NCBI RefSeq assembly: GCF_014643835.1
Contig: NZ_BMKD01000002.1
Location: 1-64,000 of the forward strand
DNA: 64,000 bases
Source: Mucilaginibacter rubeus
Lineage (GTDB): Bacteria; Bacteroidota; Bacteroidia; Sphingobacteriales; Sphingobacteriaceae
Direction of reading: 5' to 3'
Positions 43,655-53,553 of this stretch are shown here, one piece after another. A program made the position numbers and the translations under genes. The notes below the pieces were generated by a model. That model worked only from the letters and a program-made list of their open reading frames with translations, was not told the origin of the DNA and did not search any database. Each line of letters starts with the position of its first letter. Positions within the stretch are counted from its first letter, which is position 1.

Positions 43655-45025
43655 TTAGTTACCTTTTGTTTTTAACTCCAAAGTGGTTGCCAGTGAATCC
43701 AGTTTTACTGTGGCTAAGTCAAGATTAATACCCGTTGAATCCTGATGAAATTTAACTTTTTTACCATGCAGTACCCTGCAATGTGTAATAGTTTGTTTAA
43801 CAGGCGGTAATTTAATGACAGTATCTCCAGCCGGCATTTTCAGCACGTGGATATATATTTTATCACCCCTGCTTGTGGCTCCGTAGAAATCATCAACAGG
43901 TTGAAAAGGCCCCGGACGCGTTTGATATATGCTCTCGCCATTTTTTGCTAACCACTGCCCCACTTCTCTCAGGCGATCCACATGAGCAGGAGGAATAACA
44001 CCGTCCGGATCCGGCCCAACATTTAATAACATATTTCCGCCGCGGTCAACGGTATTAACAAGCATGTTTATAATCTTTTTCAGCGGCATCAATCGCTGAG
44101 CTTTATTGTATCCCCAACTGGTTTCGTTAAGGTTCAAGCATTTTTCCCAAGGGAAGGAAATAATAGGCCCTTTAACATCCGCGCCACCTTCGTCGGTCTG
44201 GAAATCTCCCACCATGCCTGATCTTGGATTAATGACCACATCCGGGTTGTAGCTACGTACCATAGCATTAAGTTTTAATGGTTCCCAAAACCAGGCAGCG
44301 TCAGCATCGGTACCTTTATGCGCCAGCCAGCCGCCATCATACCACAAAATATCTATTTTGCCGTAATTCTTCATTAGCTCCTCTACCTGCCCATATGTTT
44401 GTTTTTTGAGCAAGGCAGCGTTGTCAGGAAGCCCTTTGGGGTCGAAATAACCAGGAAAACGCCAATCCAGAGGGGAATAATAAATACCTACATAGAGGCC
44501 AGCTTTACGGCACGCATCAGTATATTCCTTTACAAAATCACGGTGAGCGGCAGTTTCCCAACTATCAAAATGCCGGTAACTTGAGGGGCTGTTCCAAAGG
44601 GCAAAGCCATCGTGATGGCGGCTAACCATTACCATATACTTCATACCTGCCTCTTTGGCTACCTTAGCCCACTCTGTGGCGCTAAAATGTTTTGGGTTAA
44701 ACTGATCGGCTAACCTGGCATATTCCTCTGCCGGTATCTTTTGATTGAACATGGTCCATTCACCCGTGGCTGGAATTGCATATAAGCCCCAATGGATGAA
44801 CATCCCAAATTTCTGATCTGCCCACCATTGCATCTTTTCGGGCGGAAGATTAGAGCCCGGGTCCGATACACCCTGCCCTGCACCCTTTAATGCGGGGTAT
44901 ACCTTACCTTTTTCCATTGACTTTCTTTCTGCGTCGCTCATTTGCTGGCTCTTCACCACAAAAGAATGGCTCAATAATGTTAGCAGCAAGCAAGCCGCCT
45001 TGATCGTGTTTTTTTTGTTAAACAT
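43655..45025 (-). CDS. GH29 alpha-L-fucosidase, secreted
   Basis: 456 residues with a Sec signal (1-26). KFGMFIHWGLYAIPATGEW opens the barrel, SRHHDGFALW (135-144) carries the conserved His pair, and the nucleophile is D230 in DILWYDGGW. NMLLNVGPDPDG is the conserved end of the catalytic domain. It cleaves terminal alpha-L-fucose from glycans in the periplasm or outside. It is convergent with the kinase gene and may supply fucose, whose oxidation product fuconate would be one candidate for the acid-sugar pathway; this link is inference. Confidence 0.92.
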   Translation of the reverse strand: MFNKKNTIKAACLLLTLLSHSFVVKSQQMSDAERKSMEKGKVYPALKGAGQGVSDPGSNLPPEKMQWWADQKFGMFIHWGLYAIPATGEWTMFNQKIPAEEYARLADQFNPKHFSATEWAKVAKEAGMKYMVMVSRHHDGFALWNSPSSYRHFDSWETAAHRDFVKEYTDACRKAGLYVGIYYSPLDWRFPGYFDPKGLPDNAALLKKQTYGQVEELMKNYGKIDILWYDGGWLAHKGTDADAAWFWEPLKLNAMVRSYNPDVVINPRSGMVGDFQTDEGGADVKGPIISFPWEKCLNLNETSWGYNKAQRLMPLKKIINMLVNTVDRGGNMLLNVGPDPDGVIPPAHVDRLREVGQWLAKNGESIYQTRPGPFQPVDDFYGATSRGDKIYIHVLKMPAGDTVIKLPPVKQTITHCRVLHGKKVKFHQDSTGINLDLATVKLDSLATTLELKTKGN

Positions 45026-45400
45026 AATTAGGGTATTCGTACAGTAACAATTCAGCCAAATAGCAATGGTTTAAACCTTTTGTATAATAATAAACCCAAC
45101 GTTTTTCAGGACGGTTTAATAATTAAGGTGTACGCCACGCTAAATTAATTAAAGTCGGCGGTGCTGAATTTCCTAAACCAGACTTTATTTTATACAAAAA
45201 CGACCTCCGGCCGGTGTCCCTTCCGGCTTAGCAAAAACTCATCACTTCCGATATGTAAGCGTTTTTACCTGGTTACAATGCAAAACCGTTGTCCATCTCC
45301 AATAGAAAATGAAGTTGTCAAGCGTAAGAAAATATATATTGATATATGAGCCTTAGATTACATTACATTTATTAATTTGCCTGGCTCCGATCTGTTCAAT
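45026..45400. other. Divergent intergenic region, fucosidase / ebo cluster
   Basis: About 375 bases with no credible gene. It should hold promoters for both directions. On the minus strand a spaced version of the shared motif occurs: TTGGGTTT (45092-45099) and TTATACAA (45080-45087), preceded by an A tract, which may place the fucosidase under the same AraC regulator. A TTTTATACAAAA stretch lies at about 45189-45200 on the plus strand. Confidence 0.35.
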
Positions 45401-45763
45401 ATGATTGCTATTATAAATATCATTTTCTGTCTTTCTTTCCTGGTTTTCGCTTACCTTAACCTGAATGATGTCGATCCATGGCTTTGGGTACCAATCTACC
45501 TTAGTGCGGCGGTGTGTTGCGGGCTAGTAGTTTTTCACCAGGTTTATCCGAAGTTGTATCTATGCCTGATCGCGATATACCTTGTTCACGCAGGTATCAT
45601 TTATTTTTCTAAAGATGGTGTCCGCGACTGGGTAACAAAATATAACAGGCCAAGTTTGGTAGAAACGATGCAGGCAGACAAGCCTTATATAGAAAAAACG
45701 AGGGAGTTCTTTGGCTTGCTGATCATTGCCGGCGCATTGCTCATCAATTATATCGCGGCCTGA
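45401..45763 (+). CDS. TMEM220-family membrane protein
   Basis: About 120 residues from the ATG at 45401; a TTG frame starts at 45377. Four hydrophobic helices, with LNLNDVDPWLWVPIYLSAAVCCG after the first, resemble the TMEM220 signature (QxNDPDPxxWIxIY). The family is widespread in Bacteroidota and eukaryotes, without known function. It begins the plus-strand run that continues with eboA after 36 bases, suggesting co-transcription. Confidence 0.75.
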   Translation: MIAIINIIFCLSFLVFAYLNLNDVDPWLWVPIYLSAAVCCGLVVFHQVYPKLYLCLIAIYLVHAGIIYFSKDGVRDWVTKYNRPSLVETMQADKPYIEKTREFFGLLIIAGALLINYIAA

Positions 45764-45799: not shown

Positions 45800-46672
45800 A
45801 TGTTCACTTATGATATAGAAAAATTTAAACCCCTGCTTACAGATCTCATTGTAACGCATGTAAGCCCGGATGCAAAAGACTGGCTGCTGGCCCTGGGAGC
45901 CCCTGCTGCATCTGCTACAGCATTTAATGCTGCCTTTGCCGCTTTGCCGCGTAAGACAGGAAAAGCGCCGGTCAATGCCGGTCCTGAAAACGAAGCTGGT
46001 TTATCGGCTATCCGTAAAGATTTTTCGATCGCAGGATGGTCGGTTGACAGGCTTGCCAGGGTATGGCTGTTGTTAACGCTTGATACCACCGATAAGGAGC
46101 GTTATAAAAGCAATATCGAAAACCTATTTTTAGCTGCTGAAATGAACGAATTGGTGGCTTTATATTCGGCTTTGCCTCTGCTTGCTTACTCCCCGATATG
46201 GGTACAACGCTGTACGGAAGGTAACCGCAGCAATCTGGGCGTTGTGCTCGAAGCGATTATGTATCACAACCCCTACCCTACGGAAAACCTGCCCGAGCCG
46301 GCCTGGAACCAAATGGTGCTAAAGGCACTTTTCACCGAAAAAAAGCTGGAACTGATCACGGGATTGGACCAGCGTGCCAATGCCAGCCTTGCACATACAT
46401 TGATCGATTACGCGCGAGAGCGCTGGTCAGCCGGCCGGAGTACAGATCCTATGCTATGGCGATTAGTAAGTCACTTTATGGATGAAGCGATACTGCAGGA
46501 CATCAAGGAAGGATTACCGGGTTTAAGCGAACTTGAAAGGGAAGCGGTGGCATTAGCTATTGCCGAAAGTGGCTTTCAGCCAGCAAAAGAATTGTTGAAA
46601 GTTGATCCTATAAAGATGGCGGCGGGCAGAAAAACGAGTTGGAACGAATTTATTAACGATACAAAAAATTAA
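45800..46672 (+). CDS. eboA: EboA-domain protein
   Basis: 290 residues, mostly helical, no signal. LAHTLIDYARERWSAGRSTDPMLWRLVSHF is close to the conserved EboA block, and the length fits. Function unknown: in the ebo cluster it may serve as a scaffold. It is followed by eboB after 9 bases. The six genes that follow are in the classical ebo order, which makes the assignment safe. Confidence 0.88.
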   Translation: MFTYDIEKFKPLLTDLIVTHVSPDAKDWLLALGAPAASATAFNAAFAALPRKTGKAPVNAGPENEAGLSAIRKDFSIAGWSVDRLARVWLLLTLDTTDKERYKSNIENLFLAAEMNELVALYSALPLLAYSPIWVQRCTEGNRSNLGVVLEAIMYHNPYPTENLPEPAWNQMVLKALFTEKKLELITGLDQRANASLAHTLIDYARERWSAGRSTDPMLWRLVSHFMDEAILQDIKEGLPGLSELEREAVALAIAESGFQPAKELLKVDPIKMAAGRKTSWNEFINDTKN

Positions 46673-46681
46673 TTTTGGGAT

Positions 46682-47668
46682 ATGTGTTGCAGCAATTTTG
46701 AAAACAGAGAGCAAATACCTGGCGAAAAACCAGAGTCATTTGACATAACCGCCGTAAAAGGTATGCGTTTTTTTGACCCGCATGTACATATGACATCCCG
46801 TACTACTGATGACTACCAGGCTATGGCTGATGCGGGCGTGGTTGGGCTGATAGAACCGGCTTTCTGGCTGGGACAGCCCCGGACGGGCATTGACAGCTTT
46901 CGCGATTATTACAGCAGCCTGGTTGGCTGGGAAAGATTCCGCTCATCGCAGTTTGGCATTAAACATTATTGCACCATAGGGCTTAACTCCCGCGAGGCAA
47001 ACAATGAAAGCCTTGCAGAACAAGTGATGGAAATACTTCCGCTGTTTGCTTATAAAGAGGGTGTTGTGGGTATCGGTGAAATAGGTTTCGACGATCAAAC
47101 AGCCGCTGAAGAAAAATATTACCGCTTGCAACTGGAACTGGCCAGGGAAGCCGGCCTGCCGGTACAGGTCCACACGCCGCACCGCGACAAGAAAAACGGC
47201 ACACGCCGTAGTATGGACATCGCGATAGAACATGGCATTGATCCTTATAAGGTCATCATTGATCATAACAACGAGGAGACCGTTAAAGAGGTCCTTGACC
47301 GGGGTTTTTGGGCCGCATTCACGATTTACCCCTTCACCAAAATGGGTAATGAGCGCATGGTTGAAATCGCCAGACAATATGGCCCGGAGCGGATCATGGT
47401 CAATTCGGCTGCTGATTGGGGCATCAGTGATCCCCTGGCTGTGCCGAAAACCGCCGCACTAATGAAAATACGCGGTATCAGTGACAAAGATATCCAATTG
47501 ATCACCTACGGTAACGCAATTACCGCTTTTGCCCAAAGCGGACAGCTCGATGAAACTGATTTCGCCGCGGTGAGGAACGTTGATCAAAGCGTAAAATTTG
47601 AAGGTAACAGTATATTGCGCGGCGGCCAGCAACCGAGAATCGATAAATCATCCATCATCATTAGCTAA
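46682..47668 (+). CDS. eboB: TatD-like metal-dependent hydrolase (EboB)
   Basis: 328 residues, amidohydrolase barrel. Metal ligands: DPHVHM (HxH, around 34-37), GEIGFDDQ (Glu), VHTPH, IDHNN and SAADWG (Asp). Classical TatD proteins are DNases, but members of this group act on an unknown small molecule. The N-terminal 20 residues with CCSNF are not conserved. It lies between eboA and eboC. Confidence 0.88.
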   Translation: MCCSNFENREQIPGEKPESFDITAVKGMRFFDPHVHMTSRTTDDYQAMADAGVVGLIEPAFWLGQPRTGIDSFRDYYSSLVGWERFRSSQFGIKHYCTIGLNSREANNESLAEQVMEILPLFAYKEGVVGIGEIGFDDQTAAEEKYYRLQLELAREAGLPVQVHTPHRDKKNGTRRSMDIAIEHGIDPYKVIIDHNNEETVKEVLDRGFWAAFTIYPFTKMGNERMVEIARQYGPERIMVNSAADWGISDPLAVPKTAALMKIRGISDKDIQLITYGNAITAFAQSGQLDETDFAAVRNVDQSVKFEGNSILRGGQQPRIDKSSIIIS

Positions 47669-47670
47669 TC

Positions 47671-48561
47671 GTGATCTTGAGGAAACTGTACATTTATCTT
47701 CAGCTCATGCGGCCCGCCAATATTGTTACTTCGGTCGCAGATATTCTGGCGGGGATCGCTATTGCCAGTGCTCCGGGTACTTTAACGGAAAGAGCCTGGC
47801 CAACGGCCCTCCTCCTTTGCCTTTCCACAGCTTGTCTTTACGGCGGCGGTATTGTTTTTAACGATATTTTCGATGTGGAGACTGATAAGATTGAACGGCC
47901 TGAAAGGGCTATCCCCTCAGGCAAGGTTAGTTTACCGGAAGCTTCAGTGCTCGGCACGTTGTTGTTAAGCGCAGGCATTTTATTGGCATTTCTCGTTTCG
48001 GCGGCATCTGGTATACTCGCGGCAGCTATCGCGCTCTGCGCGCTGCTCTACGACAAGTTTGGCAAGCATCATCCCTTTTTCGGGCCGCTTAATATGGGGT
48101 TGTGCCGGGGATTAAACCTGTTGCTCGGAGTCAGCATCATACCGGATGCGCTCAACCATTGGTCAATGTTAGCATTGGTGCCTGTGGTTTACATATTCTC
48201 GATCACCCTGACCAGTCGTGGCGAAGTTCATGGGGGCAAAAGGAACAACTTGTATATAGCGGCATTTTTGTACGCCTCGGTCATCGCCTTTATCAGCTAC
48301 TTTTCGTACGTTAATAACCGGCTGCTATGGTCACTGCTTTTCATCTTACCCTTTACCTGGATGATATCCAAACCGTTGCTCAGAGCTATAAGAGAGCCTA
48401 TCGGCAAAAATATTGGTAATGCCGTAAAGGCCGGGGTGATCTCCCTGATATTGATGGACGCTTCCTGGTCTGCCACATTCAGCTCACTTACATTCGCCCT
48501 GATGATCGCCTGCCTCTTACCACTCTCCATGTGGCTGTCGAAAACCTTTGCAGTCACCTAA
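47671..48561 (+). CDS. eboC: UbiA-like prenyltransferase (EboC)
   Basis: 296 residues with about 8-9 membrane helices. The first Asp-rich motif is intact (NDIFDVETDKIERPERAIPSG). The second is not the usual DxxxD, since LYDKFGKHHP is found there. UbiA enzymes move prenyl groups to aromatic or other acceptors within the membrane. The start is a GTG, 2 bases after the eboB stop. In cyanobacteria this gene goes with export of scytonemin precursors. Confidence 0.88.
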   Translation: MILRKLYIYLQLMRPANIVTSVADILAGIAIASAPGTLTERAWPTALLLCLSTACLYGGGIVFNDIFDVETDKIERPERAIPSGKVSLPEASVLGTLLLSAGILLAFLVSAASGILAAAIALCALLYDKFGKHHPFFGPLNMGLCRGLNLLLGVSIIPDALNHWSMLALVPVVYIFSITLTSRGEVHGGKRNNLYIAAFLYASVIAFISYFSYVNNRLLWSLLFILPFTWMISKPLLRAIREPIGKNIGNAVKAGVISLILMDASWSATFSSLTFALMIACLLPLSMWLSKTFAVT

Positions 48562-48591
48562 TTAATTTCAATAACAATAGATCTTCCTCCG

Positions 48592-49764
48592 ATGGAACAT
48601 TTGCAACAGAACTTCAGCGTAAAATATAGTTATAACGTCTTTTTTACTTCGGCTTTATTCGCAAAGGACAATCCCCTTCTGAACGATTTTCTGACAAACG
48701 CTGCTACTTCAGGCGCGTTAAGGAAGATTCTTTTTGTGGTGGATCAGGGGGTGGCCGACGCCCACGAGCATTTATGCTCTGATATCAGTTCTTATTTTCA
48801 GGCGCATACTGCTGTTCATCTGGTGCCCGAGATCTTGCTGATACCCGGCGGCGAGTACGTAAAGAATGATGAACGCTATTTTGATATGATCCTCGAAGCG
48901 GTAAATAATTACGGTATAGACCGGCATTCATACATCGCAGCAATTGGTGGCGGGGCCGTATTGGATATGGCAGGTTATGCTGCTGCAGTAGCCCACCGGG
49001 GAGTAAAGCTTATCCGCATACCAACAACTGTGCTGTCTCAGAACGATTCAGGGATCGGCGTGAAGAACAGCATCAATTATTTCGGGAAAAAGAATTTTCT
49101 GGGCACATTCGCACCGCCTGCCGCTGTTTTTAATGATGACCAGTTTTTGACCACGCTGACCGACCGAGACTGGCGTTCCGGAATATCCGAAGCTATCAAA
49201 GTTGCCTTGATCAAAGACCCTGTTTTTTTCAACTGGATAGAACAGAATACACCCGCCCTCGTGAGCCGCGACGCGACAGCAATGAATTACCTGATTTGGC
49301 GCTGCGCGCAGCTGCACATGCAGCACATTGCCGGCGCCGACCCCTTTGAAAGCGGCTCATCACGCCCTTTGGATTTCGGGCATTGGAGCGCGCACAAACT
49401 GGAATTTCTCAGCGGTTTCGACGTTCGACATGGTGAAGCAGTAGCCATGGGGATAGCCCTGGATACGGTTTATTCCTGCCTTTGCGGCCGTTTAACCGTT
49501 GCGGACAGTGAGCGCGTGGTAAGCCTGATCCAAAACTTAGGTTTTGAAATCAGCCATGGGCTCTTAAAGATCAACGGAGATGACAGCCCATTATTGCACG
49601 GCCTGGAGGAGTTTCGCGAGCATTTAGGCGGGGAGCTCACCATTACGTTACTCAATGCTATTGGCGAAGGTGCCGAGGTGCATGAAATTGATACCCAGCT
49701 TTTGAAACAAGCGAGTATTGAACTATACAACCGGCAATTCGAACTTCAGCAAACGCAAATTTAA
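48592..49764 (+). CDS. eboD: 3-dehydroquinate synthase-like enzyme (EboD)
   Basis: 390 residues. NAD site GGGAVLDMAGYAAAVAHRG, sequence IPTTVLSQNDSGIGVKNSINYFGKKNFLG and metal ligands in ISEAIKVAL, DFGHWSAHKLE and RHGEAVAMGIALD show a sugar-phosphate cyclase fold of the AroB type. The cluster enzyme is not the shikimate AroB, and its substrate is unknown. A C7-cyclitol or related ring could be made and then prenylated by EboC. Confidence 0.88.
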   Translation: MEHLQQNFSVKYSYNVFFTSALFAKDNPLLNDFLTNAATSGALRKILFVVDQGVADAHEHLCSDISSYFQAHTAVHLVPEILLIPGGEYVKNDERYFDMILEAVNNYGIDRHSYIAAIGGGAVLDMAGYAAAVAHRGVKLIRIPTTVLSQNDSGIGVKNSINYFGKKNFLGTFAPPAAVFNDDQFLTTLTDRDWRSGISEAIKVALIKDPVFFNWIEQNTPALVSRDATAMNYLIWRCAQLHMQHIAGADPFESGSSRPLDFGHWSAHKLEFLSGFDVRHGEAVAMGIALDTVYSCLCGRLTVADSERVVSLIQNLGFEISHGLLKINGDDSPLLHGLEEFREHLGGELTITLLNAIGEGAEVHEIDTQLLKQASIELYNRQFELQQTQI

Positions 49765-49785
49765 ACAATACAAACATCTGCCCTC

Positions 49786-50997
49786 ATGAAAATAAATGCA
49801 GCGCACCTGACCTATTGTACGAATATCCATCCCGCGGAGAACTGGCCGGAAACTTTCGGGGCCCTGAAAAACCATTTCCCGGCAATCAGGGCTGCCCTTG
49901 CGGGGAAGGAACAAATGGGTATTGGCCTGCGCCTTTCTAATATGGCCAGCCTGGGTTTGCTGGCAGAGGAAGATAATTTAGCGGAGTTTAAACAATGGCT
50001 GTTTGATCATGATGCTTATGTTTTCACGATGAACGGTTTCCCCTATGGCGGTTTCCATAACACCGTAGTTAAGGACGAAGTGCATGCGCCGGATTGGACA
50101 ACAGTTGAGCGCGTGGATTATACCTTACGCCTGTTTCATATACTGGGCGAATTACTTCCTGAAGGTTTGCAGGGAGGGATTTCAACCTCACCCTTAAGCT
50201 ATAAACCATGGCATGCGGCCGGTGAGGCCAGGAACACTGCAAGGGCGATCGCCACGGAGAATATTTTAACAGTGATGGCTGCACTTTTTAAAATATACAG
50301 TTCGGCCGGAGTCCTGATGCACCTGGATATCGAACCCGAGCCGGATGGCTTCCTGGAATCAGGCCGGGAGTTTATAGATTGGTTTGAAAACGACCTGTTG
50401 CCGCGTGGTATTTTATTGTTGGGAGAACAGTTTGGCCTGTCTCCGGCTGATGCAGAAGAAGCTGTCAAACAACACATTAACCTATGCTATGACGTTTGCC
50501 ATTTTGCTATCGGCTATGAGGAACATGAGTGCGTCATTGACGAACTGGCCGCGAAAGGTATCCAGGTAGGCAAGATACAAATCAGTGCTGCCTTGAAGGC
50601 CCATCTTCCGGCGGAATTGGCGATGAGGGACGAGGTGACCGACGAGCTTGCCAGATTCAACGAGCCAACGTATTTGCACCAGGTGATCGCGAAAACCGCA
50701 AATGGAGAATTGATCCGTTATCCGGATTTACCGGAAGCCCTGGCAGATAACCAGACCCCGGCAGTCAATGAATGGCGTGCGCACTTTCATGTGCCTGTTT
50801 TTGTTGAGGATATGGGTGTGGTGCAATCAACACAAAACGATATTGTCAGAGTGCTCAACAAATTCAGGAACGCTGCTTTTACACAACACCTGGAAGTGGA
50901 AACATATACCTGGAGTGTATTACCGGATGAGCTGAAAGCACCCTTAACGCAATCGATCATCCGGGAATTGGATTGGGTTAAAGCGCAAATATCATAA
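49786..50997 (+). CDS. eboE: Sugar-phosphate isomerase-like TIM barrel (EboE)
   Basis: 403 residues. The barrel starts with HLTYCTNIHPAENW, then FTMNGFPYGGFHN, LHLDIEPEPDGFLES-like (VLMHLDIEPEPDGF) and CYDVCHFAIGYE, which gives the metal site of an epimerase/endonuclease IV-type barrel. Known in databases as the metabolite traffic protein EboE. The next gene starts 13 bases after it. Confidence 0.88.
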   Translation: MKINAAHLTYCTNIHPAENWPETFGALKNHFPAIRAALAGKEQMGIGLRLSNMASLGLLAEEDNLAEFKQWLFDHDAYVFTMNGFPYGGFHNTVVKDEVHAPDWTTVERVDYTLRLFHILGELLPEGLQGGISTSPLSYKPWHAAGEARNTARAIATENILTVMAALFKIYSSAGVLMHLDIEPEPDGFLESGREFIDWFENDLLPRGILLLGEQFGLSPADAEEAVKQHINLCYDVCHFAIGYEEHECVIDELAAKGIQVGKIQISAALKAHLPAELAMRDEVTDELARFNEPTYLHQVIAKTANGELIRYPDLPEALADNQTPAVNEWRAHFHVPVFVEDMGVVQSTQNDIVRVLNKFRNAAFTQHLEVETYTWSVLPDELKAPLTQSIIRELDWVKAQIS

Positions 50998-51010
50998 GAA
51001 AGAAGCCAAT

Positions 51011-52363
51011 ATGAATAAAACGGTAGTTATCGATGTAGTGGGTTTATCCACGTCTCTGATCGGCGAGCATACGCCATTTCTTAAATCTTACATCAAAGGC
51101 AGACATTTGACGCATATAACGCCTGTATTGCCTGCTGTTACCACCGCCATGCAGTCCGCCTACGTCACCGGCAAATTTCCTGTTGACAATGGCATTGTAG
51201 GTAATGGGTGGTATGACCGCGCGGATTGTGAAGTAAAATTCTGGAAGCAGTCAAACAAACTCGTTGAAGGACAGAAAATATGGGAAAAGGCCAAGAGCGA
51301 AGATCCATCTTTCACGAGCTCGATAATGTTTTGGTGGTACAATATGTACTCCTCGGCGGATTACTCCGTGACGCCCAGGCCAAATTACCTTGCCGACGGA
51401 CGAAAAATACCGGATTGTTACTCGGAGCCTGCCGACCTGCGTGACCACCTTCAGGCGAAGTTGGGCCAGTTTCCGCTTTTTCAGTTTTGGGGGCCCGGCG
51501 CCAATATCAAATCAAGCCGTTGGATAGCTGACGCTGCAATGGAAACAGATACGCTGCATGACCCGACGCTAACACTGATATACCTGCCTCATCTGGACTA
51601 TTGCCTGCAAAAATTCGGTCCGGATTTACCAATTATTGCCAAAGACCTGAATGATATTGATAAAATTATCGAAGATCTGGTTTCGTTTTACAGGAAAAAA
51701 GATGCCGAGATCATTATCCTTTCCGAATATGGTATCTCCCCGGTGGACCGCCCGGTTCATTTAAACCGGGTATTGAGGCAAAACGGCTTGTTAGGCATCA
51801 GGATTGAGCGTGGACTGGAGATACTTGACCCTGGCGCTTCAAAAGCCTTTGCGGTAGCTGATCACCAACTGGCACATGTCTACATCAACGATGCGAGCGT
51901 AACGGCAAAAGTCAAAGCGCTGCTTGAAGCCGTGCCTGGTGTTGAACGGGTGCTTACCCGGGAAGAGCAGGCCGCATATCACATCGACCATCCCCGGGCC
52001 GGCGACCTGGTCCTGATCGCTGATGAAAGAAGTTGGTTCACTTATTACTTTTGGCTGGATGACGCGCTTGCCCCGGATTACGCGCGCGTAGTTGACATCC
52101 ATAAAAAACCGGGTTATGATCCTGTTGAGATGTTTATGAGCTCAAAGCTCCGCGCCGGCTACAAGTTGCTGCGCAAAAAGGCTGGTTTCAGGTATGTGAT
52201 GGATGTCATTCCCCTGGATGCCGCCCTGATTAAAGGCTCTCATGGCCGGGTGGATGTACCGTCAGAATATCAGCCGGTGATCATTACCGATAACCCATTG
52301 GAAAAACAGGACCTGATAGCGACCGACATTCATGATATCATCTGGAGGCACCTGAAAAATTGA
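51011..52363 (+). CDS. eboF: Nucleotide pyrophosphatase/phosphodiesterase-family protein (EboF)
   Basis: 450 residues of the alkaline phosphatase superfamily. VIDVVGLS with Asp, and the nucleophile Thr in LPAVTTAMQSAYVTGKFPVDNGI, form the first metal site; SEYGISPVDRP and GSHGRVDVP give the other ligands. No signal peptide, unlike typical secreted NPPs, so it acts in the cytoplasm. It closes the ebo operon; no clear terminator follows. Confidence 0.87.
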   Translation: MNKTVVIDVVGLSTSLIGEHTPFLKSYIKGRHLTHITPVLPAVTTAMQSAYVTGKFPVDNGIVGNGWYDRADCEVKFWKQSNKLVEGQKIWEKAKSEDPSFTSSIMFWWYNMYSSADYSVTPRPNYLADGRKIPDCYSEPADLRDHLQAKLGQFPLFQFWGPGANIKSSRWIADAAMETDTLHDPTLTLIYLPHLDYCLQKFGPDLPIIAKDLNDIDKIIEDLVSFYRKKDAEIIILSEYGISPVDRPVHLNRVLRQNGLLGIRIERGLEILDPGASKAFAVADHQLAHVYINDASVTAKVKALLEAVPGVERVLTREEQAAYHIDHPRAGDLVLIADERSWFTYYFWLDDALAPDYARVVDIHKKPGYDPVEMFMSSKLRAGYKLLRKKAGFRYVMDVIPLDAALIKGSHGRVDVPSEYQPVIITDNPLEKQDLIATDIHDIIWRHLKN

Positions 52364-52464: not shown

Positions 52465-53553
52465 TTATTCAAAATTCCACCACGCAACCTGTTTGAGGGG
52501 GCTGCCTAAAGTGTAAGGCTCCCCAATACGCGGAACGTTTAGTTCGACACCCAACTCCTTTGCTGCAGGCACAAGCCTTTTTATCGGTTCGTTCCAGGGC
52601 TGGTTAGCTTCAATAAACTTAGCCCAGTGAATAGGCTGTAACAAACGGGCATGCAGGTCAGCAGCAGCCTGTGCGGGTTGCCCTAACCACAGGTGCGTCC
52701 ATGGCCAATTGGGGCTATACTGTCCGCATTCCAAAAACGCCAGATCAAATGGCCCGAATTGCTGGCCTATTTGTTTAAAATGCGGCCCGTACCCGCTATC
52801 GCCACTGTAAAACAGCCTATAACTGCCAATCTGAAAAACGTAAGAGGCCCATAATGTTTTATTCTCATTCTTATACGTACGATTGCTGCGATGTTGGGCT
52901 GGGGTGGCGGTAATCCGAATACCACCGGACAACGTAATCGATTGGTTCCAATTAAGTTCGATGATCTTTTTAGGGTCAAACCCCCAGTATACCAGATCAG
53001 CGCCTACTCCCATCGGCACGATAGCCATTTTAATACGATCTTTTAATTTTTTCAAAGTTCGATAATCCAGATGATCGTAGTGATCATGAGAAATGATCAG
53101 CGCATCTATTTGAGGCATATCATCGGCGTGATAATGCTTTGTACCCGGGAATGCGGTAATCAATCCGGGCACCGGTCCGGCATGATTGCTAAAAACCGGA
53201 TCAATGAGCATATTAAACTGTCCGCTTTTTATAAGTAAAGACGAATGTCCAAACCAAACGATCGTAGGTGCAGGAGCAGCTAATGAATTCAGATCGGTTT
53301 TAATCCACGGAAGTGCATGAGAAGGCCTGATGGTTTCAGGACGTCTGCTCAAAAAAAGAAATTTACGTTTGACCGTAGAATCGGAAAGTTCAGCCAAATT
53401 TATAAAAGCTCCATTTTTATAATTTGGTAAAGAATCCAACCGGGTAAGTTCTTCGCCATCCGGATTTTTACCCAGAGATTTAACTACGCCGCAACCGTCG
53501 ACCGTCAATAATAACAGTGCAGCCAACACAATTCCCAAACACGCTCTTTTCAT
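52465..53553 (-). CDS. MBL-fold metallo-hydrolase lipoprotein
   Basis: 362 residues. Lipobox-like LLLTVDGC near residue 21. The zinc motif is HDHYDH (HxHxDH), with a GDSGYG Asp and the distal His in LQPIHWAKF. The WFGHSSLLIK start and these blocks are typical of the NAPE-PLD/UlaG-like branch, which cleaves phospholipid head groups or lactones. It stands alone. Confidence 0.85.
   Translation of the reverse strand: MKRACLGIVLAALLLLTVDGCGVVKSLGKNPDGEELTRLDSLPNYKNGAFINLAELSDSTVKRKFLFLSRRPETIRPSHALPWIKTDLNSLAAPAPTIVWFGHSSLLIKSGQFNMLIDPVFSNHAGPVPGLITAFPGTKHYHADDMPQIDALIISHDHYDHLDYRTLKKLKDRIKMAIVPMGVGADLVYWGFDPKKIIELNWNQSITLSGGIRITATPAQHRSNRTYKNENKTLWASYVFQIGSYRLFYSGDSGYGPHFKQIGQQFGPFDLAFLECGQYSPNWPWTHLWLGQPAQAAADLHARLLQPIHWAKFIEANQPWNEPIKRLVPAAKELGVELNVPRIGEPYTLGSPLKQVAWWNFE

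Follow-up and report, generated by a model that had tools for sequence, protein, structure and literature searches.

Gene clusters of the ebo type were named in 2016, when the type was published with a product that is still unknown (Yurchenko et al, 2016, PMC5133447). In that report, an operon of six genes in the order ABCDEF was described from eustigmatophyte plastids and bacteria, an isoprenoid–cyclitol product was proposed, with sedoheptulose 7-phosphate (S7P) as the substrate of EboD on the basis of a tree of sugar phosphate cyclases, and a Leeuwenhoekiella cluster of composition ABCEF, lacking eboD, was left unexplained. Two copies of eboD are mentioned there for Nostoc punctiforme. The ebo mutants of Nostoc punctiforme retain the scytonemin monomer in the cytoplasm, and a lipid carrier has been hypothesised for its movement to the periplasm (Klicki et al, 2018, PMC6282210). 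Ubi-297, which is an EboC, and two homologues from marine Bacteroidota farnesylate 8-hydroxyquinoline-2-carboxylic acid in vitro (PMC9235831), and SCO3242 has been described side by side with the myo-inositol phosphate synthase (MIPS) SCO3243 as CDA genes, without the ebo name (PMC3610822). The present study concerns a 64,000-nucleotide stretch of Mucilaginibacter rubeus (contig NZ_BMKD01000002.1, positions 1 to 64,000; hereafter, the window), in which an ebo cluster lies at 45800-52363. It has the six genes, the gene families and the ABCDEF order of the published operon (PMC5133447), from which it differs by a TMEM220-family gene upstream, and the same genes as the scytonemin-associated cluster of Nostoc (PMC6282210), from which it differs in that no ScyD/ScyE relative was found in the window. 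Clusters of the SCO3242 type in Actinomycetota resemble ebo in having an EboA domain, a TatD hydrolase, a UbiA transferase, EboE, and an NPP-like protein, but inositol-3-phosphate synthase (INO1) and TIM2, a further TIM barrel (PF01261) in addition to EboE, are present instead of EboD. The cluster type and its undefined product are thus already published, and what is new here is what fills the place of EboD elsewhere.

Our analysis slightly favours, with a probability of about 0.55, the reading that the locus is an intact ebo operon making a membrane lipid in which a polyhydroxylated carbocycle (cyclitol) is joined to an isoprenoid, and the product is probably an inositol-like ring on a lipid tail. 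Six open reading frames on the + strand, all intact and separated by gaps of 2-30 bases, fill 45800-52363, which confirms this region as a predicted, tightly packed eboA-F operon. Family models name all six genes eboA-eboF, in agreement with the original prediction, and the equivalog cut-offs for EboC and EboE were both passed (403.9 vs 250 and 494.3 vs 250 bits). The classical A-F order, which had also been predicted, was borne out by the positions of the reading frames and by tblastn contigs; because A-B-C-D-E-F recurs in many Bacteroidota and cyanobacterial contigs, chance can be excluded as the origin of the gene run. The best EboC relative among the tblastn matches was that of Pedobacter sp. 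L105, with 73% identity, which points to a Sphingobacteriaceae-like host. The further proposals of a cyclised sugar-derived ring that is then prenylated, and of a distribution over cyanobacteria, eustigmatophyte plastids, and many bacteria, were supported as well.

The sequences show that EboD is missing from other lineages in which INO1 and TIM2 are present. By tblastn of EboC and EboE against plasmids, clusters without EboD but with INO1 and TIM2 were found in haloarchaea, Gemmatirosa, Streptomyces, Nonomuraea, and Embleya, and in Streptomyces, Embleya, Nonomuraea, Gemmatirosa, and three haloarchaea, the ebo cluster itself includes INO1. Among 90 loci with eboB, eboC, and eboF (the window included), EboD only was present in 80, INO1 only in 9, both in 0, and neither in 1, a count that omits stretches without B, C or F (L039, L041, L055, L059, L069, L076, L078, L088, L097, and L111) and duplicate or non-cluster loci (L005-L008, L100-L110, and L114), and in which the Bacteroidota and cyanobacterial loci, having been chosen by likeness to the EboC of the window, are a biased set with many near copies. 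TIM2 was present in 9/9 INO1 loci and also in L003, a haloarchaeal plasmid of Haladaptatus, compared with 0/80 EboD loci. In the 40 listed of 48 EboE plasmid records, many of which are near-identical strains, INO1 was present within 12 kb in 22 and EboD beside EboE in 15; neither cyclase was present in 3 (Streptomyces), and both in none of those listed. The TIM2 proteins of Actinomycetota, Gemmatirosa, and the EboD-less Bacteroidota have a common ETGAR motif and 43-52% identity between groups (pairs shown). For those of haloarchaea, the identity is only about 27-34%, so that their equivalence is less sure. The idea that every PF01261 neighbour is a TIM2 was rejected on the motif and these identities. 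The choice between EboA and EboG was found to be independent of the cyclase, with EboG accompanying EboD in Deinococcus and INO1 in Gemmatirosa.

The same relationship was observed in genome samples. Of 296 genomes drawn evenly across Bacteroidota, 24 had EboE, and among these EboD was present in 23 and INO1 in 3 (G224, G249, and G001). In G224, which is EboD-less, the ebo run reads A-B-C-E-F, and INO1, directly followed by TIM2, is located elsewhere in the genome. Within the order of G224, EboE was present in 30/348 genomes, of which 21 had EboD and 9 did not. The nine EboD-less genomes keep A, B, C, E, and F, with an EboC 45-50% identical to that of the window, and INO1 was present in all nine, compared with 5/21 genomes with EboD, in which it falls in a different clade of the INO1 tree. 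TIM2 was present in 9/9 EboD-less genomes vs 0/21 EboD genomes (E<=1e-12; 64-100% identity to the query, itself one of the nine). Fisher tests gave 1.4e-4 for any INO1 and 7e-8 for the 9/0 vs 0/21 split, values to be read with the kinship of these related genomes uncorrected. The INO1 and TIM2 genes are adjacent in five of the EboD-less genomes; in G734, G800, and G824 they are about 5-6 kb apart, and in G712 they are on different contigs. The pair in G764 is followed by chorismate-binding and class IV aminotransferase genes. In cyanobacteria, EboE was present in 8/194 genomes, and INO1 in 0/7 of those tested.

In a tree of concatenated EboB, EboF, and EboC, with EboD-less Bacteroidota labelled by genome, the starred branches force at least four cyclase switches over all lineages. 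Eight of the nine EboD-less Bacteroidota form one clade, and G824 stands elsewhere, beside the EboD-bearing G587 (95/90). Gemmatirosa (INO1) pairs with Deinococcus (EboD) in the EboB tree (100/100, with a long-branch warning) and falls among proteobacterial rows in the EboF tree, with weak support and only one change forced. In the INO1 tree, the INO1 of EboD-less Bacteroidota form a clade different from that of the in-cluster INO1. We read the distribution and the trees as a repeated, putative replacement of EboD's ring-forming step by INO1 and TIM2.

The INO1 family makes inositol phosphate from glucose 6-phosphate. The residues Lys 274, 278, 306, and 367, Asp225, and Asn255 of Archaeoglobus fulgidus MIPS, which we take to be functional, are kept in 19/19 ebo-linked INO1; therefore, these proteins should catalyse the same conversion. 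Most simply read, EboD on the one hand and INO1 with TIM2 on the other would supply an equivalent ring of six carbons. A replacement of the step that forms the ring thus favours an inositol-like ring over a sedoheptulose-derived one, and S7P, which the original prediction had offered for an in vitro test of EboD, is weakened as its obvious substrate because inositol-3-phosphate synthase occupies the place of EboD in several lineages. If INO1 and TIM2 truly take over the part of EboD, known inositol chemistry limits what the ring can be, and the repeated replacement makes testable the question of the product, which has been open since the naming in 2016. It would also offer an account of ebo clusters seemingly without eboD and unite the clusters of cyanobacteria, Bacteroidota, Actinomycetota, and haloarchaea as a single system. 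The word 'inositol' is absent from the main text of PMC5133447 and of PMC6282210, and no paper linking INO1 to ebo was present among the matches listed, in a search that lay outside subscription papers and preprints.

Several observations weigh against an inositol-like product. No ebo product is reported in the literature found, and the window contains no ScyD/ScyE, VioB-like, INO1 or TIM2 relative. The L003 locus of Haladaptatus has neither cyclase, and the Asp at residue 329 of A. fulgidus MIPS, a position picked in this analysis, is not kept in the ebo-linked INO1. Both EboD and INO1 are carried by G249 and G001 (2/23), where no TIM2 is found beside INO1, and the 5/21 EboD genomes with INO1 in the order of G224 point the same way. 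Furthermore, TIM2 was found in two of the 296 genomes, one of which, G241, has INO1-TIM2 without an EboE match and together with Gfo/Idh, metallo-beta-lactamase (MBL)-fold, and YcaO genes, and INO1 is accompanied by the same kinds of genes in 5/9 EboD-less genomes (G712, G734, G800, G824, and G810, where it is the second INO1 that they accompany). Because of G241 and these gene sets, the INO1 and TIM2 of EboD-less genomes might serve another pathway. Their presence could then be coincidental, serving the YcaO and Gfo/Idh set or phospholipid synthesis, with EboD simply lost, and the single clade formed by eight of the nine EboD-less genomes would agree with this, as would a related INO1 of Halomarina (L114) that sits among glycosyltransferases. 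This last was rejected as ebo-linked and left uncounted, as it lies outside an ebo cluster. We regard coincidence as improbable: TIM2 was found in none of the 21 genomes of this order that have EboD; G224, G764, G794, and G816 have a single INO1, which is paired with TIM2 and has no YcaO genes with it; INO1 is inside the ebo cluster in the actinobacterial, Gemmatirosa, and haloarchaeal cases named above; and G824 is a separate switch. The occurrence of INO1-TIM2 in both ebo and YcaO contexts marks it as a portable module with at least two settings. As a separate observation, a conserved set of INO1, an unknown protein, in some cases a methyltransferase, a Gfo/Idh oxidoreductase, an MBL-fold protein, YcaO, and in some cases TIM2 was found in Bacteroidota (L126:276-6975, L123, L130, L122, L128, and L150), a genome lacking EboE among them, and this looks like another inositol-based pathway.

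The remaining points against an inositol-like ring come from EboD and EboC. The eboD gene (48592..49764, + strand) scored 571 bits on NF004852 (cut-off 333). This model is named 3-dehydroquinate synthase and in practice recognises the EboD family; its cut-off was passed in 23/24 EboE-bearing Bacteroidota genomes vs 0/14 control genomes. On the AroB model TIGR01357, EboD reached 219.9 bits, under the cut-off of 305, which was passed by a separate AroB in 45/46 ebo genomes, with next matches at 208-239 bits; in G001, the second match is the EboD adjoining EboE, and the sole ebo genome without an AroB match, G027, is from a metagenome-assembled genome (MAG; L048). We aligned EboD with two AroB from ebo genomes, two solved dehydroquinate synthases (DHQS), an annotated S7P cyclase, and two cyanobacterial paralogues. 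In 89/89 EboD, E200, H264, and H280 stand at the columns of the metal ligands of sugar phosphate cyclases (AroB, EEVS, DDGS, and DOIS). Unlike the AroB and S7P-type cyclases compared, it has a pattern of its own, His242, Asp261, Trp265, His268, and His344 (89/89), of which His242 and Asp261 stand at the AroB substrate-site Lys and Asn columns (K250 and N268 of the Aspergillus nidulans enzyme). The identity of EboD with AroB was therefore rejected on the model score, the separate AroB, and the His and Asp at the substrate-site columns, and the alignment shows EboD as a predicted sugar phosphate cyclase distinct from AroB. The possibility that EboD is an ordinary dehydroquinate synthase, on which the original prediction would have fallen, finds no support in the sequence. 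The EboD of Salipiger sp. CCB-MM3 (L093:7073-8974) carries a VTT (DedA-like) membrane domain fused at its N terminus, and this domain has no relative in the other loci compared.

The Asp261 and His344 of EboD match the Asp and His of the annotated S7P cyclase of Streptomyces clavuligerus, at columns occupied by Ala and Thr in two cyanobacterial third paralogues, and this likeness favours a C7 substrate. EboD would then use S7P and form a valiolone-kind C7 cyclitol, and the INO1-type clusters would make a different ring, giving related but non-identical lipids. These two columns would be the ones that discriminate EEVS from DDGS. That two sites separate these enzymes is published (PMC4426668), and the S7P proposal from the cyclase tree (PMC5133447) is in line with a C7 ring. 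Conversely, EboD keeps His268 as in DHQS, where S7P-type enzymes have Pro, and the nine Bacteroidota genomes with INO1 and no EboD have an EboC 45-50% identical to that of the window. On balance, a C7 product seems unlikely.

A third possibility is that the product is a prenylated aromatic of the quinoline or hydroquinone type, the ring being built by EboD and by EboE acting as an AsbF-like dehydroshikimate dehydratase, with C-prenylation by EboC. The farnesylation of the quinoline acid by Ubi-297 and its homologues fits an aromatic acceptor and is a further point against a cyclitol, although all 14 acceptors tested in that work were aromatic, and phenols and catechols failed (PMC9235831). The eboC gene (47671..48561, + strand, GTG start) encodes a UbiA-superfamily intramembrane prenyltransferase (NF035940), in which N64, D65, D68, and D72 of the first Asp-rich motif are kept in 111/111 homologues. 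Its top curated models after EboC and SCO3242 are those of digeranylgeranylglycerylphosphate (DGGGP) synthase, and it scored 87 bits on a DGGGP synthase model vs 30 bits on a 4-hydroxybenzoate transferase model. DGGGP synthase was likewise among the relatives in Klicki et al (PMC6282210), but the model match stops at residue 175 of 296. The eboE gene (49786..50997, + strand; NF035939) encodes a protein for which no Pfam or PDB match was found by sequence, and a profile search of PDB sequences was likewise empty; as such searches gave nothing useful, folds were used for the comparison of EboE and EboA. The AlphaFold2 model of EboE (pLDDT 92.1) had 71 PDB fold matches at E<=0.001, including UlaE, Art22, IolI, IolE, and AsbF at 8-15% identity. 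E183, D236, H239, Q265, and E372 are conserved in 106/106 homologues, and a Glu-Asp-Gln/His-Glu tetrad is the metal site of xylose-isomerase-like TIM barrels, among which EboE belongs by its fold and its conserved putative metal-site residues. In the model, residues and fold are fitting for work on a keto-cyclitol. The match to AsbF agrees with an aromatic ring, and those to IolI and IolE stand beside it; the score of EboC on the DGGGP synthase model and the INO1 in the ring-forming place, which is hard to reconcile with a shikimate-type acceptor, both argue in the other direction. We consider an aromatic product to have only a slim chance.

For the preferred cyclitol lipid, the following pathway may be proposed. 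EboD would close a sugar phosphate to a keto-cyclitol, and INO1 with TIM2 would convert glucose 6-phosphate to this ring or to an equivalent one. EboE would isomerise or dehydrate the ring, and EboC would attach a prenyl chain to it, probably at oxygen, with the assistance of EboA or EboG. EboF may bind or reshape the product instead of acting as a textbook phosphodiesterase. The lipid would help aromatic metabolites to cross the inner membrane, as the genetics in Nostoc indicate (PMC6282210).

The altered site of EboF bears on the penultimate role. The eboF gene (51011..52363, + strand) belongs to the alkaline-phosphatase/NPP superfamily (PF01663, 208.1 bits, cut-off 23), in which the ligand set comprises six His/Asp metal ligands and a Thr nucleophile. 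By alignment with phosphonoacetate hydrolase, from which the ligand columns were read, Thr44 at the nucleophile column is kept in 104/105 homologues (one gap), Asp196 and His411 in 105/105, and Asp284, His285, and His289 are invariant (105/105). However, Q200 (102/105, Leu in 3) stands at the column of the phosphonoacetate hydrolase His and E239-Y240 (105/105) at its Asp-His columns, and the first-Asp column holds D in 73, N in 26, L in 4, C in 1, and a gap in 1 (n=105). Only part of the six ligands is thus kept. Because of this replacement, EboF is unlikely to be a canonical di-metal phosphodiesterase, and another metal site is conceivable; the phosphoester processing that had been ascribed to EboF does not agree with canonical ligands replaced in 102-105/105 homologues.

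The neighbours of ebo clusters elsewhere support a role with aromatic metabolites. A ScyD/ScyE-family gene was found near INO1-type ebo clusters in Streptomyces NBC_00028 (255 bits, cut-off 80) and in Streptomyces AMCC400023 (228 bits), where it belongs to an aromatic polyketide cluster. ScyD/ScyE relatives at E<=1e-6 were present in 7/10 cyanobacterial loci, the other three stretches being short upstream, and in none of the Bacteroidota loci scanned. In the unrelated hosts Aureibacter and Mycetohabitans, the same gene pair immediately precedes ebo (L001:2171-5231 and L096:3054-6072), namely, a PF12902 ferritin-like protein and a protein with a weak VioB match in Aureibacter (2.4e-7) and none in Mycetohabitans. 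Such neighbours, together with the VTT fusion of the Salipiger EboD, would be expected if ebo assists the passage of aromatic monomers through the membrane, which extends the Nostoc result. A wider and doubtful proposal, which we put forward only tentatively, is that Bacteria and Archaea share, as the ebo product, a prenylated cyclitol lipid of the inositol type, that EboD is a glucose-6-phosphate cyclase of new specificity repeatedly replaced by INO1 and TIM2, and that the lipid acts generally as a carrier or membrane factor exporting toxic or coupling-prone aromatic monomers, on which ScyE-like enzymes then act.

Of the remaining genes, eboA (45800..46672, + strand) encodes a soluble protein. 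It passed the domain model NF035938 (163.7 bits, cut-off 50) and missed the narrower EboA_family model (212.1 vs 320), so that it is a member at the domain level. Its AlphaFold2 model (mean pLDDT 94.1, 18 helices) predicts a mainly helical protein with high confidence; it had no PDB fold match at E<=0.001, and its profile gave only two matches to PDB sequences, at E 0.8 and 0.93. The product of eboB (46682..47668, + strand) is a TatD-like metallohydrolase (PF01026, 62 bits, cut-off 27) that misses the TatD DNase model TIGR00010 (38.7 bits vs 206), while its putative ligands are kept: H34 and H36 in 107/108 homologues (one gap) and E133, H164, H195, and D245 in 108/108.

The first gene of the run, a component beyond the six of the original prediction, encodes a TMEM220-family small membrane protein of 120-128 amino acids (PF15071, 84 bits; 45377..45763, + strand, with an ATG at 45401 or a TTG at 45377 as start) and stops 36 bases before eboA. 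The profile was matched in 52/71 loci (the window, L009-L077, and L079), chiefly of Pedobacter, Mucilaginibacter, and Daejeonella, with another match close to ebo in G773 (132 bits), and tblastn gave no match in the Emticicia, Lacihabitans, Spirosoma, and cyanobacterial loci compared. Given this patchy distribution, the gene looks like a lineage-specific companion of ebo and not a general component. Upstream of the run, a Bacteroidetes-type promoter was not found with a strict pattern, with one loose match at 45376, and viral contigs gave no EboC relative with the patterns used. The flanks look unrelated: an alpha-L-fucosidase family gene on the left (43655-45025, - strand) and an MBL-fold gene on the right (52465-53553, - strand).

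Some variant clusters were also observed. In Spirosoma profusum (L069), eboA, B, and C are together and D, E, and F were undetected in the 20.9 kb stretch; an AroB-family match of EboD-like score is present elsewhere in the genome. A MAG titled Williamsia (L068), whose title or bin may be wrong, has a Bacteroidota-type ebo cluster without INO1. Among Streptomyces plasmids, L097:8968-10146 has a lone EboE adjoining a type II polyketide cluster, and L111:7417-10647 has a B-E-F run in which C, the cyclase, and A were undetected. Finally, at L116:4607-26058 (NZ_CP024990.1), an INO1-type ebo cluster lies within an aromatic type II polyketide cluster that holds glutamine synthetase-like, amidase, and adenylosuccinate lyase-like genes and a ScyD/ScyE gene, and the product may, at a guess, be diazofluorene-like.

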